Source: Phycisphaerales bacterium (GTDB taxonomy: Bacteria > Planctomycetota > Phycisphaerae > Phycisphaerales > SM1A02). From it: a DNA stretch of 64,000 nucleotides. A model generated the notes under the pieces. That model saw only the letters and a list, made by a program, of their open reading frames with translations. It did no database searches and had not been told where the DNA came from. The stretch covers positions 312,501-376,500 of the forward strand of contig JAJDDB010000027.1 of assembly GCA_029260575.1 (NCBI GenBank), read 5' to 3'. Positions within the stretch are counted from its first letter, which is position 1; each line of letters begins with the position of its first letter. Position numbers and translations under genes: made by a program. This document shows positions 60,431-64,000 of this stretch, piece by piece.

Positions 60431-61798
60431 TCAATGAGTAGCGGATTCCGGATCATCATCGCCGTTGTTGTTCGGCACCGGCCGACCATGCGGATCAACT
60501 GACGCCTGCTTTGTTGCTGCTGCAAGGTTGCGTTGTACTGCAGCGCTATTGATGTGCTCCAACTGCTCGGCCGGCTCGTGTACGTGATCTGCAGCAAACC
60601 CTGCCTGATCAACGAGATAACGCTCCCACTGTCTGTGCCTGCGGATAATCTGCCGTGCCGCAGCCCGGCCTGCTTCGGTCAACTGAATTGCACCTGAAAC
60701 ACTAGCCACAAGCAACTGTTTGCGGGCTTGATCAAGAGCATGATCTGCTTTGTGTCCACGCTGCAGCGTAGCGAGTTGCGCCTTGTCGACCGACTCGGTG
60801 CCCGCTTCTTCCAGGCGATACAGCGCTGCCAGCATATCATCCAGCGCTACCGTGCGACCAAGTCTGCGTTGATGCAGCCGGCGAGCAATGATGCCGCGCT
60901 GCGGCGCAAACACAATTGCAATCACCAGCAACAGCGCTGCGACGACCGTCATCATGCCCGCAGCGTTGACTGCTTCCAATCCGAACGCAGCCGGCAACGC
61001 AGTTGCTGCAACATACCCGCCGATGCCGCTAACGCCAGCCACAACAACGCTGCACACAATCTGACTGCGCAGTCGATCGGTCAGCAATCGCGCTGTCGCA
61101 GCCGGGCACACCAGCATTGCAATGACAAGTATCGACCCCACCGCTTCGAACGATGCCACAGTCGCTGCTGCGACAAATATCATAAGCAGGTAATGCAGCA
61201 TACCTGCGTTGTAGCCGAGCGTTGTCGCCAGCGCCGGGTCAAATGCTGCAATGCGCAATTCCTTGAACAGCAGCGCGACAAACACAACAGCAGCGATCGT
61301 CATGACGATCAACGTCACAACCTGCCGAGGAACTTCGCTGAGTGTTGTAAACGAGAACAACTGCCCCCAGTCACCGGGCGGAAACCAGAACAGTGTTTCG
61401 AGTTGGCCGTGCAGCACACAATCCGCATCAAGATCGACCTGCCGTGCTGCAGCCCGTTCGATCAAAAGCACACCCAGCGCAAACAGCACGCTGAATACGA
61501 CACCCATAGCTGCGCCGGGTTCGACGCGGCCGAGCTTCTTGACAAGCTCCACCAGTACGACTGTCACCACACCCGCAATCGCCGCGCCGCCGAACATTGC
61601 GATCGGACTTCGCATCCCGGTAATGAGAAACGCCATTACAAGTCCGGGCAGCACCGAATGCGAAATTGCATCGCCCATCAGGCTCAGCCGTCGCAGCACC
61701 AGAAAATTGCCGAGCAAACCGCACGTCACCGCAGCAAGGGTCCCTGCAAGCATCGGCAGAAGATCGATGCTCAGGAAATTGTGCATCGCTTCGTTCAT
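60431..61798 (-). CDS. Metal ABC transporter permease fused to a DtxR/MntR-like regulator (YtgCR-like)
   Basis: 455 residues. Residues 1-300 are a MntB/ZnuB-type (ABC-3) permease with about eight membrane helices (ISHSVLPGLVMAFLI, VFALGVLLIERAA, ILVIAMLVCPAATARLLT). From about 310 a complete DtxR-like unit follows: winged-helix-like LDDMLAALYRLEEAGTESVD, then LTEAGRAAARQIIRRHRQWE, and metal-site residues matching MntR (His of RRH, and E-x2-E-H in EQLEH), ending with DPHGRPVP. Chlamydia YtgCR has this same order. Its start overlaps the stop of the upstream permease (ATGA). Confidence 0.88.
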   Translation of the reverse strand: MNEAMHNFLSIDLLPMLAGTLAAVTCGLLGNFLVLRRLSLMGDAISHSVLPGLVMAFLITGMRSPIAMFGGAAIAGVVTVVLVELVKKLGRVEPGAAMGVVFSVLFALGVLLIERAAARQVDLDADCVLHGQLETLFWFPPGDWGQLFSFTTLSEVPRQVVTLIVMTIAAVVFVALLFKELRIAAFDPALATTLGYNAGMLHYLLMIFVAAATVASFEAVGSILVIAMLVCPAATARLLTDRLRSQIVCSVVVAGVSGIGGYVAATALPAAFGLEAVNAAGMMTVVAALLLVIAIVFAPQRGIIARRLHQRRLGRTVALDDMLAALYRLEEAGTESVDKAQLATLQRGHKADHALDQARKQLLVASVSGAIQLTEAGRAAARQIIRRHRQWERYLVDQAGFAADHVHEPAEQLEHINSAAVQRNLAAATKQASVDPHGRPVPNNNGDDDPESATH

Positions 61799-63156
61799 GT
61801 CCGAACCGCCTGGAACTGCGGAATCTCCACGCCTCGCTTGCGTAGTGCTGCTTCCAGCTCATCGATCAACGCATCGCTGAGTACGTGCTCGACCTGATCG
61901 ACAGACCAGTCGACATGACTGGGCGCAATATCCGCATAGCTGATGAGATACTGCTCCCACAAGTAATGGTTTCGGCTGATGCGTGCGCCATCGCGACGCC
62001 CCGCATCGGTCAGCGCGATTGCGCCGCCGGAATCCCCGCGAATCAACCCGCGCTGTCTGGCCCACCATACGATGACGCTGCCCAGCCACGCCGGCCAGGC
62101 CCGACGTCTTGCCACCGCGCGCAGTATATCGCGCTGCAGCGCCGCATCATGTTCCAGTTCATACTCATACGCTGCTTCCACAAGGTGTTCACCCGCAATG
62201 CGCAGCCTCACACGCAGTTGACGGATCGACATTGCAATAACGCCCCGCTGCGGTGCGCATACCATCGACACCGCAAACAACACGCCACTGGTCAGCACAA
62301 TCACCGACCCTGCGGGCTTGCGAGGCAAGAGCGCGGACATCACCGACCCGCAATATCCACTTGCACCGCCGATCAGTGCCGCAAGAACAACAAGCACCCA
62401 CAGACGCTGCGTCCAGAACCGCGCGCTCACCGCAGGAATGATCAACATCGCCACAACAAGAATCAAACCAACTGCCTGCAAGCCCGCCACCGTTACCAGC
62501 ACCACCAGTGCCATCATCAGCAGGTCAATGAACGACACCGGCCAACCATCGACCGTCGCAAACGCGTCATTGAAACACACCAGCGCGAATTCCTTGAGCA
62601 GCGCAACTGTCGCAGCAACCGCAAGCATCGCAATTGCACCCATAAGCACCGCATCACTCATGCTCATCGCTGCGGTCTGGCCGTAGATGAACCGGTTCAA
62701 ACCCGCTGCAGTGCCCGTCTGCATCGATTGAATGACGCTCAACAGCACAATGCCCACGCCGAAAAATACGCTGAGGACAATGCCGATTGATGCGTCTTCG
62801 CGCAGTCGTGTGTGCCGAAGCAGCAGTTGAATACACACCACACCGAGCACGCCGGTAATCGTTGCGCCCGTTAACAACACAGGCAGACTCCGCGCCGAGC
62901 CGCCGAGCGCCGTCACAGTTAAATACGCCAATCCGATGCCCGGCAGCGTCGCATGACTGAGCGCATCACTCATCAGAGCACGCTTGCGCAGCAGCGCAAA
63001 CACGCCGACAATCCCGGCAGCAATTCCCAACAGCGACGTGCCAACTATGACAAGATTCGTATTGAAGCCGGCCTGGAAGGTCAGCGTTTCAAAGATCTGC
63101 GACCAGCCCGGCCATTCATCGGTGACGTTCGTGATGGACGATGGAGCGCTGCTCAC
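61795..63156 (-). CDS. Second metal ABC transporter permease fused to a DtxR/MntR-like regulator
   Basis: 453 residues. Residues 1-300: ABC-3 permease with ALMSDALSHATLPGIGLAYL, IGIVLSVFFGVGIVLLSVIQ and GLILVVAMLIIPAVSARFWT. Residues about 320-445 repeat the DtxR-like layout: EHLVEAAYEYELEHDAALQR, ALTDAGRRDGARISRNHYLW and HVDWSVDQVEHVLSDALIDE, where D-x2-E-H occupies the E-x2-E-H metal position. Both permeases of the transporter therefore carry the domain. It begins 3 nt after the ATPase gene stop. Confidence 0.88.
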   Translation of the reverse strand: MSSAPSSITNVTDEWPGWSQIFETLTFQAGFNTNLVIVGTSLLGIAAGIVGVFALLRKRALMSDALSHATLPGIGLAYLTVTALGGSARSLPVLLTGATITGVLGVVCIQLLLRHTRLREDASIGIVLSVFFGVGIVLLSVIQSMQTGTAAGLNRFIYGQTAAMSMSDAVLMGAIAMLAVAATVALLKEFALVCFNDAFATVDGWPVSFIDLLMMALVVLVTVAGLQAVGLILVVAMLIIPAVSARFWTQRLWVLVVLAALIGGASGYCGSVMSALLPRKPAGSVIVLTSGVLFAVSMVCAPQRGVIAMSIRQLRVRLRIAGEHLVEAAYEYELEHDAALQRDILRAVARRRAWPAWLGSVIVWWARQRGLIRGDSGGAIALTDAGRRDGARISRNHYLWEQYLISYADIAPSHVDWSVDQVEHVLSDALIDELEAALRKRGVEIPQFQAVRT

Positions 63157-63159
63157 CCA

Positions 63160-63987
63160 TCACCGCCCGTCACCAGCGCGAGCAACAGCTTCCGCTGCTT
63201 CAGCCAGAAGCGTCAACCGCCCACCATATGTCTTGTGCAGATTCGCGTTGGTAACAACGTCATCGACCGGCCCGGCTGCGACCACGCGCATATTCAAAAG
63301 CAGTGCGTGATCAAAATACTCCCGCACCGTCTGCACATCATGATGGACGCAGATCACCGTGCCGCCGCTGGATTTCAATTCGCGCAGCACATCGACAATC
63401 GCACGTTCAGTTGCAGCATCAACGCCGGCAAACGGCTCGTCCATAAAGTACAAATCCGCCTCCTGCGCCAGCGCCCGCGCGAGAAAGACGCGCTGCTGCT
63501 GCCCGCCGGACAGTTGACTGATCTGCCGATCGGCATATTCGCGCATGCCGACGCGATCCAGACACTGCAGCGCTGCGTGCTTATGCTTCTTTGTCACCGG
63601 CCGGCACCACCCAACCATGCGATAGCGACCCATGCACACGACATCCAGTGCCGACACGGGAAAATCCCAATCAACCGATTCGCGCTGCGGGACATAACCG
63701 ATGCGCGCGCGCATCTGCTTATATGGCCGACCCCAGAACTCCACCTGCCCCGACGCCCGTGGTACAAGACCCAGGCACGCCTTGATCAGCGTGCTCTTGC
63801 CCGCACCGTTCGGGCCGACGATCGCAATGAGTTTGTTGTTCGGCGCGTCATAGTCAACATCCCACAACACCGGCTTACGGTGGTACGCAACGGTCATTGC
63901 GTGTACCGACACCGGACTGTCAGCGGAATGCTCCGGCCGGGCGTCCAGTACGCTTCGTGGTACTGCTGTCAACATCTCCGTTGACAT
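63160..63987 (-). CDS. Metal ABC transporter ATP-binding protein
   Basis: 275 residues from the ATG at 63987 (a GTG lies two codons earlier). Walker A GPNGAGKSTLIKACLG, Q-loop VPQRESVDWDF, signature LSGGQQQRVFLARALA, Walker B DLYFMDEPFAGVD, switch His CVHHDVQ. The VPQR/DWDFP context is typical of the MntB/ZnuC/YtgB manganese-zinc-iron class. First gene seen of the operon; a substrate-binding protein gene is likely just past the right edge. Energises the two fused permeases. Confidence 0.95.
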   Translation of the reverse strand: MSTEMLTAVPRSVLDARPEHSADSPVSVHAMTVAYHRKPVLWDVDYDAPNNKLIAIVGPNGAGKSTLIKACLGLVPRASGQVEFWGRPYKQMRARIGYVPQRESVDWDFPVSALDVVCMGRYRMVGWCRPVTKKHKHAALQCLDRVGMREYADRQISQLSGGQQQRVFLARALAQEADLYFMDEPFAGVDAATERAIVDVLRELKSSGGTVICVHHDVQTVREYFDHALLLNMRVVAAGPVDDVVTNANLHKTYGGRLTLLAEAAEAVARAGDGR

Positions 63988-64000
63988 CGTCACAACAGAC

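Follow-up and report, generated by a model that had tools for sequence, protein, structure and literature searches.

Both permeases of an ABC metal importer in a Phycisphaerales bacterium carry DtxR-like domains that may sense metal on the transporter

Background

Bacteria need a fast stop of metal import once the cytosol fills. What a gene-regulator domain could do on each half of a metal importer is the question raised by a 64,000-nucleotide (nt) stretch of a Phycisphaerales bacterium (assembly GCA_029260575.1, contig JAJDDB010000027.1, positions 312,501 to 376,500; hereafter the window), which ends within a minus-strand cluster of importer genes. Positions 60431-63156 of the window are filled by two adjoining minus-strand permease genes with a 4-nt overlap, here called PermUp (upstream) and PermDn (downstream). 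An earlier note had proposed that both are fused to full DtxR/MntR-like regulators, that the two domains either gate transport or are released as a repressor pair, and that the arrangement may be the ancestral form of chlamydial YtgCR within the Planctomycetes-Verrucomicrobia-Chlamydiae (PVC) superphylum. The sequence evidence presented here favours a role of the two domains in sensing metal at the pump over one in switching genes.

Fusions of a permease with a repressor are known, and the accessible part of a review states that the 2012 YtgR paper counted them in 11 phyla (PMC5599777). According to excerpts of two papers, YtgR of Chlamydia is cut from its permease, binds DNA and represses in a metal-dependent manner (PMC5599777, PMC7755916), and an excerpt of a third describes trans-inhibition by fused C-terminal domains as established for the transporters MetNI and ModABC (PMC10710835). 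The double fusion described here extends the known permease-repressor fusions, of which single cases had been reported before and are not limited to the PVC superphylum. To our knowledge, there is no domain-based brake at the protein level for Mn/Zn/Fe ABC importers. Likewise, none was found in the literature searched or in the accessible part of PMC10710835. The same literature, outside which the primary YtgR papers lie, contained no description of both partners being fused, of a contrast between the DNA-binding and metal-binding halves, of a fixed arm, or of an association between promoter box and regulator type.

Results

Each permease ends in a DtxR-like domain

The two genes and their parts lie in the window as follows (aa, amino acids).

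61795..63156, minus strand: PermUp, upstream ABC-3 permease with C-terminal DtxR-like domain (453 aa, GTG start; YtgC position)
62242..62253, minus strand: PermUp hinge PQRG at the membrane exit (residues 302-305); its Gly lies 19 residues before ligand H324
61798..62241, minus strand: PermUp C-terminal domain (residues 306-453), with helical arm, diverged winged helix and metal/dimer half
61840..62010, minus strand: PermUp Fe_dep_repr_C match (residues 383-439), with ligands H397, E401, D416, D420, E423 and H424 and the tethered-type Trp400
60431..61798, minus strand: PermDn, downstream ABC-3 permease with C-terminal DtxR-like domain (455 aa; YtgD position; last gene of the operon)
60893..60904, minus strand: PermDn hinge PQRG at the membrane exit (residues 299-302); its Gly lies 19 residues before ligand D321
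60434..60892, minus strand: PermDn C-terminal domain (residues 303-455), including a DPHG..P motif
60473..60679, minus strand: PermDn Fe_dep_repr_C match (residues 374-442), with ligands H388, E392, H407, E411, E414 and H415 and the tethered-type Trp391

Both genes encode permeases of ABC-3 metal importers (Mn/Zn/Fe), with matches to PF00950 of 192.3 bits for PermUp and 144.3 bits for PermDn (curated cut-off 20.1) and with an ATPase and a ZnuA-type binding protein encoded in the same cluster. PermUp has the YtgCR architecture, in that it occupies the YtgC position and combines an ABC-3 permease with a DtxR-like domain at its C-terminus. The DtxR metal-binding and dimerisation domain (Fe_dep_repr_C, PF02742) scores 40.9 bits in PermUp and 72.1 bits in PermDn (cut-off 27), and since both domains exceed curated cut-offs, chance is excluded. 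A reading artefact can be set aside as well: in a survey set of 61 genomes, made up of the window's genome and 60 relatives, PF02742 was matched in 57, and in 30 of them two such domains occur in adjacent permease genes (one of these 60 domains, in PermDn of G022, falls below the Pfam cut-off). The model for the DtxR helix-turn-helix (HTH), PF01325, gave no match at E ≤ 1 in either protein, whether the whole sequence or the tail alone was searched. For the permeases and the ATPase, all matches to NCBIfam models stayed below the cut-offs.

Compared with MntR/DtxR chains in the Protein Data Bank (PDB), the PermDn tail aligned over its full length (best E 3.8e-16) and the PermUp tail over the metal half (E 2.4e-6). 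AlphaFold models, built from alignments of 33 sequences for PermDn and 32 for PermUp, reached a mean predicted local distance difference test (pLDDT) of 91.9 and 89.2, respectively, and both tails are predicted to adopt a DtxR/MntR-like fold, winged helix included. The model of the PermDn tail superposes on solved MntR/DtxR structures with a Z of 17.3 and a root-mean-square deviation (rmsd) of 2.0-2.2 over 133-134 residues (2.2 over 134 residues for the Mn repressor DR2539), and that of PermUp on DtxR with a Z of 14.0 and an rmsd of 2.5 over 128 residues; the match to DtxR in Foldseek was clear for PermDn (1.7e-5) and weak for PermUp (best 6e-3). Curated domain matches, predicted fold and ligands thus agree that both partners carry a DtxR/MntR-like C-terminal domain, as the earlier note had claimed. 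The DPHG..P motif of the PermDn tail is the one that closes domain 2 in stand-alone DtxR-type proteins.

The metal half is conserved and the DNA-binding half drifts

In DtxR numbering (given in brackets), the predicted ligands of PermDn are D321 (10), H388 (79), E392 (83), H407 (98), E411 (102), E414 (105) and H415 (106), and those of PermUp are H324 (10), H397 (79), E401 (83), D416 (98), D420 (102), E423 (105) and H424 (106). The two sets differ and each is separately conserved, that of PermUp being rich in His and Asp and that of PermDn consisting of Asp, His and Glu. Among 32 PermUp proteins, H79, D98, E105 and H106 are kept in all, D102 in 31 and E83 in 30, and H10 is found in 27 when ligand columns are compared and in 31 in the hinge alignment; among 33 PermDn proteins, E105 and H106 are kept in all, D10, H79, E83 and H98 in 32 each, and Glu or Met at position 102 in 28. 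When the 65 fused proteins from the sampled relatives are taken together, E105 and H106 never vary, H79 is present in 64 and E83 in 62, and the distance from ligand 79 to 106 is 27 residues in 63, so that the metal residues picked out in the earlier note proved to be conserved among relatives. Neither of the two outcomes that would have refuted the earlier note, a predicted structure lacking the DtxR fold and unconserved metal residues, was thus observed. As the near-invariant ligands are specific to the partner, each permease seems to keep a metal site of its own.

As a reference we took 31 stand-alone DtxR/MntR proteins, encoded in the same genomes or in related ones. PF02742 is present in 32/32 PermUp, 33/33 PermDn and 31/31 stand-alone proteins, whereas PF01325 is found in 31/31 stand-alone proteins and in none of the 32 PermUp and 33 PermDn proteins (E ≤ 0.1). 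Mean pairwise identity over the HTH is 25% in PermUp and 19% in PermDn, versus 57% in the stand-alone DtxR-type and 62% in the MntR-type proteins; over the metal half, the values are 66, 55, 72 and 59%, respectively. After rarefaction to 11 sequences, the HTH has an entropy of 2.09 bits (PermUp) and 2.21 bits (PermDn) versus 1.03 (DtxR-type) and 0.94 (MntR-type), and the ratio of HTH to metal-half entropy, rarefied as well, is 2.55 and 1.92 versus 1.54 and 0.88. The HTH half also varies in length, the spacing between ligands 10 and 79 ranging from 54 to 81 residues in PermDn and from 63 to 80 in PermUp. The earlier description of the tails as full regulators hence stands for the metal/dimer half, which is recognisable in 65/65 proteins, and had to be rejected for the DNA-binding half, whose PF01325 model fails in all 65 and whose winged helix is a prediction of structure.

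Two further features set the tethered domains apart. The ligand helix carries the Trp of a HRLWE motif in 65/65 fused and 0/31 stand-alone proteins among the window's relatives; this set is the fair test, the Trp being forced by the search pattern RxHRLWExYL in the wider groups of loci described below. Furthermore, PQRG follows directly after the last membrane helix in both permeases, and the Gly of this hinge is invariant (32/32 PermUp, 33/33 PermDn) and stands exactly 19 residues ahead of the first ligand in all 65. The same spacing was found in 38/38 lone fused permeases, in 14/16 permeases fused in one of two partners and, among the 24 Feo-linked proteins, in 17 of the 19 that show the hinge pattern, and the models show a single continuous helix from just past the hinge through DtxR helix 1. 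A fixed arm in front of a drifting HTH would fit mechanical coupling better than a cleavable repressor.

Promoter boxes follow the type of the stand-alone regulator

A stand-alone DtxR/MntR protein was found in 28/30 double-fusion genomes, at 23/30 loci within the fetched stretch and in 5 of the remaining 7 genomes elsewhere, the latter judged by open-frame length. In 40/50 other genomes with a fused permease (50 of 57 loci covered), a reading frame of 146-272 aa matched PF01325 above the cut-off. In the window's own genome, a stand-alone DtxR of 226 aa that includes a FeoA/SH3 domain is encoded about 187 kb away from the operon.

Two kinds of palindrome were found upstream of the binding-protein genes, M1, TTTTGACTAATCAAAA, and M2, TTTGTAGCCTATGCTACAAA; both motifs were derived from loci that were later counted (L046, L058, L061; L051), and a box was called when at most 2 of 200 shuffles matched it. 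M1 occurs at 8/10 DtxR-type loci versus 0/20 MntR-type loci (Fisher 8e-6), a count that includes the window's locus, which was assigned to the DtxR class by hand as its DtxR lies elsewhere, and that leaves out L047 (64 bases upstream). With the motif-supplying loci removed, the counts are 5/7 versus 0/19. Within double-fusion loci they are 4/6 versus 0/18, three of these four loci having supplied the motif and the fourth being the window's operon. M2 is found upstream of the binding protein at 10/20 MntR-type loci and at 15/20 once the search is extended to the region upstream of the regulator (which added L040, L041, L043, L045 and L078); the DtxR-type locus L061 also passes M2, at 1 of 200 shuffles, and several MntR-type loci have no convincing box. 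Since operons with the same double-fused permeases have either class of box, the box goes with the stand-alone regulator, and this association is the strongest evidence obtained here against the tails acting as the operon's repressor.

The window's operon itself bears a perfect box, listed here with the neighbouring genes of the cluster.

63160..63993, minus strand: ABC ATPase of the same operon, whose true start may lie further upstream, past the window end
L004:3990-4379, minus strand, outside the window: 129-aa membrane protein between the binding-protein and ATPase genes (DUF2065 match below cut-off)
L004:5358-5373 (G000 C27:377858-377873), outside the window: perfect DtxR-type box of the operon, 16/16

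The genes are ordered ZnuA-type binding protein, 129-aa membrane protein, ATPase, PermUp and PermDn, the first two lying outside the window in L004, and very probably form one five-gene operon that would be transcribed together. The nearest NCBIfam models to the ATPase are Mn/Fe ABC ATPases, matched below their cut-offs. The box overlaps the first codons of the longest (annotated) open reading frame (ORF) of the binding protein, so the real start of this protein probably lies downstream. Apart from this box, the 4.1-Mb genome contains a single further TTGACTAATCAAA site; the reversed control pattern matched once in the genome, whose sole match to a looser form, TTGACTAGGCAAG, also lies upstream of the operon, close to the box. 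The other TTGACTAATCAAA site (C4, L179) lies among ORFs without a clear link.

Distribution and relationship of the fused domains

Among the relatives, other states of fusion were also found: PermUp alone is fused in L066 and L067 and PermDn alone in L070, L071 and L078, and L068, L069 and L072 are operons with a single, fused permease, where a homodimer would again bring two tails together. An evenly drawn set of 118 Planctomycetota genomes included at least 21 with neighbouring permeases that are both fused, the criterion being that each matches the 438-position fused model up to position 410 or further; 7 of these belong to the window's order and 14 to the rest of the phylum (one of the latter, G161, has an incomplete partner). 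Two fused permeases at separate places were seen in G077, G122 and G134 among the matches listed, far apart on one contig in G077 and G134.

In a pattern scan of GTDB, relatives of the tail proved to be encoded at no fewer than 579 loci, the best 80 of which underlie the counts for named loci. A fused permease is present in 57 of these 80: 3 double fusions (L121, Planctomycetota; L124, Verrucomicrobia; L137), 16 in which one of two permeases is fused (L122 may instead represent a lone fused permease next to a different transporter, and in L115 the fusion is on PermDn) and 38 lone fused permeases, some of which sit at contig ends. Of the remaining 23, 22 are Feo-linked loci, which are grouped on their own below, and one, L132, has two shorter frames. 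Fused permeases among the best 80 span Bacteroidota, Verrucomicrobia, Planctomycetota, Chlorobiaceae and Ignavibacteriales and extend to Anaerolineales (L097), Bipolaricaulota (L118), Thiomicrorhabdus (L151, L154) and Symbiobacterium (L122). FeoA is also matched by 20 of the 38 lone fused permeases, judged by length to be those of about 500 aa (for example L085:5194-6663), which thus represent a three-domain DtxR on a permease.

In a quick tree with many weak forks and no chlamydial sequence, the fused PermUp domains form one clade (97 in the Shimodaira-Hasegawa-like approximate likelihood-ratio test, SH-aLRT) apart from the PermDn domains; a recent duplication of a single fused permease, a possibility that we had considered, therefore does not explain the pair. 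The PermDn domains do not form one clade and fall into a supported set with 20 MntR-type stand-alone proteins, L115 and L145. Single fusions far outside the PVC superphylum, in Bacteroidota, Anaerolineales, Bipolaricaulota, Thiomicrorhabdus and Symbiobacterium, leave the earlier suggestion that the pair may be the ancestral PVC form of YtgCR unsupported and led us to reject a PVC-specific ancestral form, as far as a tree without chlamydial loci goes.

In L177:1447-2556 (G084), PermDn retains the arm and winged helix without the metal half, next to a PermUp with the whole domain. Match ranges of PermDn like that of L177 were seen beside a fused PermUp in G070, G078, G089, G106 and G152 and beside an unfused one in G130 and G140. 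A permease that carries just a winged helix can hardly be taken for a DNA-binding repressor.

Relatives linked to Feo

The Feo-linked group comprises 24 proteins (L099:5929-6966, L101:5938-6957, L109:963-1955 and others, as well as L076:3697-4689 and L077:4243-5253) with a short N-terminal segment followed by a Trp-marked DtxR-like domain and then FeoA domains. The N-terminal segment scores as a membrane helix in 19/24, FeoA is matched in 24/24, and the one protein viewed residue by residue has two FeoA stretches. A FeoB-like G1 motif is encoded in the same locus in 24 of the 25 Feo-linked loci checked, and a further, shorter DtxR frame in 16 of the 22 Feo-linked loci among the best 80 (L141 aside). 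This type looks like a tethered metal sensor associated with Feo.

Discussion

We consider it an even chance that the tails are a tethered pair of sensors that gates import in the manner of trans-inhibition, the genes being controlled by the stand-alone DtxR. The importer would be a Mn/Zn/Fe-type ABC transporter in which each permease half bears a cytoplasmic DtxR-like domain on a helical arm of fixed length, and these domains would have kept metal binding and dimerisation without a conserved DNA-reading surface. At high cytosolic metal, both domains would bind metal, pair like the two chains of DtxR or MntR and hold the permease/ATPase assembly at rest, to release it when metal is low, and the stand-alone DtxR would control the genes through the TTTTGACTAATCAAAA box of the operon. 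As the ligand sets differ and are separately conserved, the two domains might respond to different thresholds or to different metals.

Such direct feedback would resemble that of MetNI and ModABC, made here from a gene-regulator domain. The proposed likeness lies in the principle that a pair of ligand-binding C-terminal domains restricts the transporter; in the excerpt of PMC10710835, the regulatory domain of MetNI and ModABC is on the ATPase, whereas here it is on the permease and DtxR-like. The membrane parts resemble the Mn transporter PsaBC of Streptococcus pneumoniae (Z 30.0 for PermDn and 33.1 for PermUp), whose listed solved chains, at 258-290 residues, are too short for a tail of the type seen here. 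The domains share the predicted two-domain fold and the metal ligands with the stand-alone regulators DtxR, IdeR, MntR and SloR, from which they differ in the membrane tether, the Trp and the poorly conserved HTH.

Several observations weigh against this reading. No stand-alone PF02742 protein was detected in the double-fusion genomes G004 and G007 (95 and 96% complete), and in the window's genome the stand-alone DtxR is so distant from the operon that its control of the box is something we infer. Neither box is passed at 2/10 DtxR-type loci (L055, L062) and at 7/7 scored loci without a nearby stand-alone protein. Because the predictions retain the winged-helix fold, the tails might bind DNA, and the entropy ratio of PermDn exceeds that of stand-alone DtxR-type proteins just moderately. 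Beyond the sampled relatives, PF01325 is recognisable in 9/38 lone fused permeases, 2/16 one-of-two fused permeases and 5/24 Feo-linked proteins. In the one-of-two fused proteins, which have YtgR's architecture, the HTH is equally diverged (20% identity), and since YtgR binds DNA, HTH divergence is not decisive. Lastly, an excerpt describes MntR of Porphyromonas gingivalis, a DtxR with twin FeoA, as binding DNA in vitro (PMC4805248).

Some of these points would favour an alternative that we judge unlikely, in which a protease, as in Chlamydia, frees both tails as soluble metal-dependent repressors that act on the operon promoter as homodimers or as a PermUp-PermDn heterodimer. The locus and YtgC/YtgR share an ABC-3 permease with a C-terminal DtxR-like domain in an operon of binding protein, ATPase and permease, as far as the excerpt of PMC5599777 goes, and cleavage of YtgR from YtgC with metal-dependent repression is a precedent (excerpts of PMC5599777 and PMC7755916). 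The predicted two-domain fold with its wing, the two genomes with a double fusion and no detected stand-alone PF02742 protein, and the nine lone fused permeases with PF01325 all fit such a release, which keeps part of its probability because YtgR binds DNA despite an equally diverged HTH in permeases of its architecture. In contrast to YtgCR, whose partner YtgD has no such domain according to the earlier note, both permeases are fused here, their HTH is unrecognisable as that of DtxR, and there is a separate DtxR along with a box of the stand-alone protein's class. Tails freed as repressors would be expected neither to lack PF01325 in 65/65 cases nor to have an HTH identity of 19-25% where many loci have well-conserved palindromic boxes, and the class of these boxes shifts with the stand-alone type over the same double-fused permeases. 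The invariant 19-residue helical connection leaves no loose linker, and a second repressor would be redundant in 28/30 genomes. Of the two functions offered in the earlier note, gating thus fits better than the released repressor pair.

Rather improbable, too, is that the tails tune the stand-alone DtxR/MntR from the membrane, be it by forming heterodimers with it, by holding it when metal is scarce or by passing imported metal to it. The conserved dimerisation half shared by both, their coexistence in 28/30 double-fusion genomes and ligand sets similar to those of DtxR-type regulators would suit such tuning, but the fused pair is kept with either an MntR-type or a DtxR-type stand-alone protein, and a specific partnership would need to work with both; moreover, two genomes lack a stand-alone PF02742 partner, and the tethered-type Trp suggests a distinct surface. 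It is very improbable that the tails are leftovers of an ancient fusion event and serve the permease only structurally: the HTH half drifts and has deletions (down to 54 residues between ligands 10 and 79), PermDn of L177 has lost its metal half and single-fused states occur among relatives, but a 19-residue spacing held across families and near-invariant ligands, in a set proper to each permease, are unlike relics.

Extending the tethered-sensor reading beyond this operon is tentative. Transporter-tethered DtxR-like sensors marked by the HRLWE Trp and the fixed arm may form a widespread class that gives direct metal feedback, on ABC permeases (at times in pairs) and, as transmembrane-DtxR-FeoA-FeoA proteins, beside FeoB, with cleaved Chlamydia YtgR as a derived case. 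MntR of P. gingivalis, in which the DtxR-like domain is followed by two FeoA domains as in the L099-type proteins, counts against the Feo branch, as it binds DNA in vitro; it is reported as a DNA-binding regulator and has no permease, and the word "transmembrane" is absent from the accessible text of the paper (PMC4805248).

Conclusions

If the tethered-sensor reading is true, the fold of a gene regulator would have been reused as a transporter-bound sensor in two types of importer, and Chlamydia YtgCR, the best-known example, would have to be reread as a fused domain that was first a sensor of transport and only later a free repressor.

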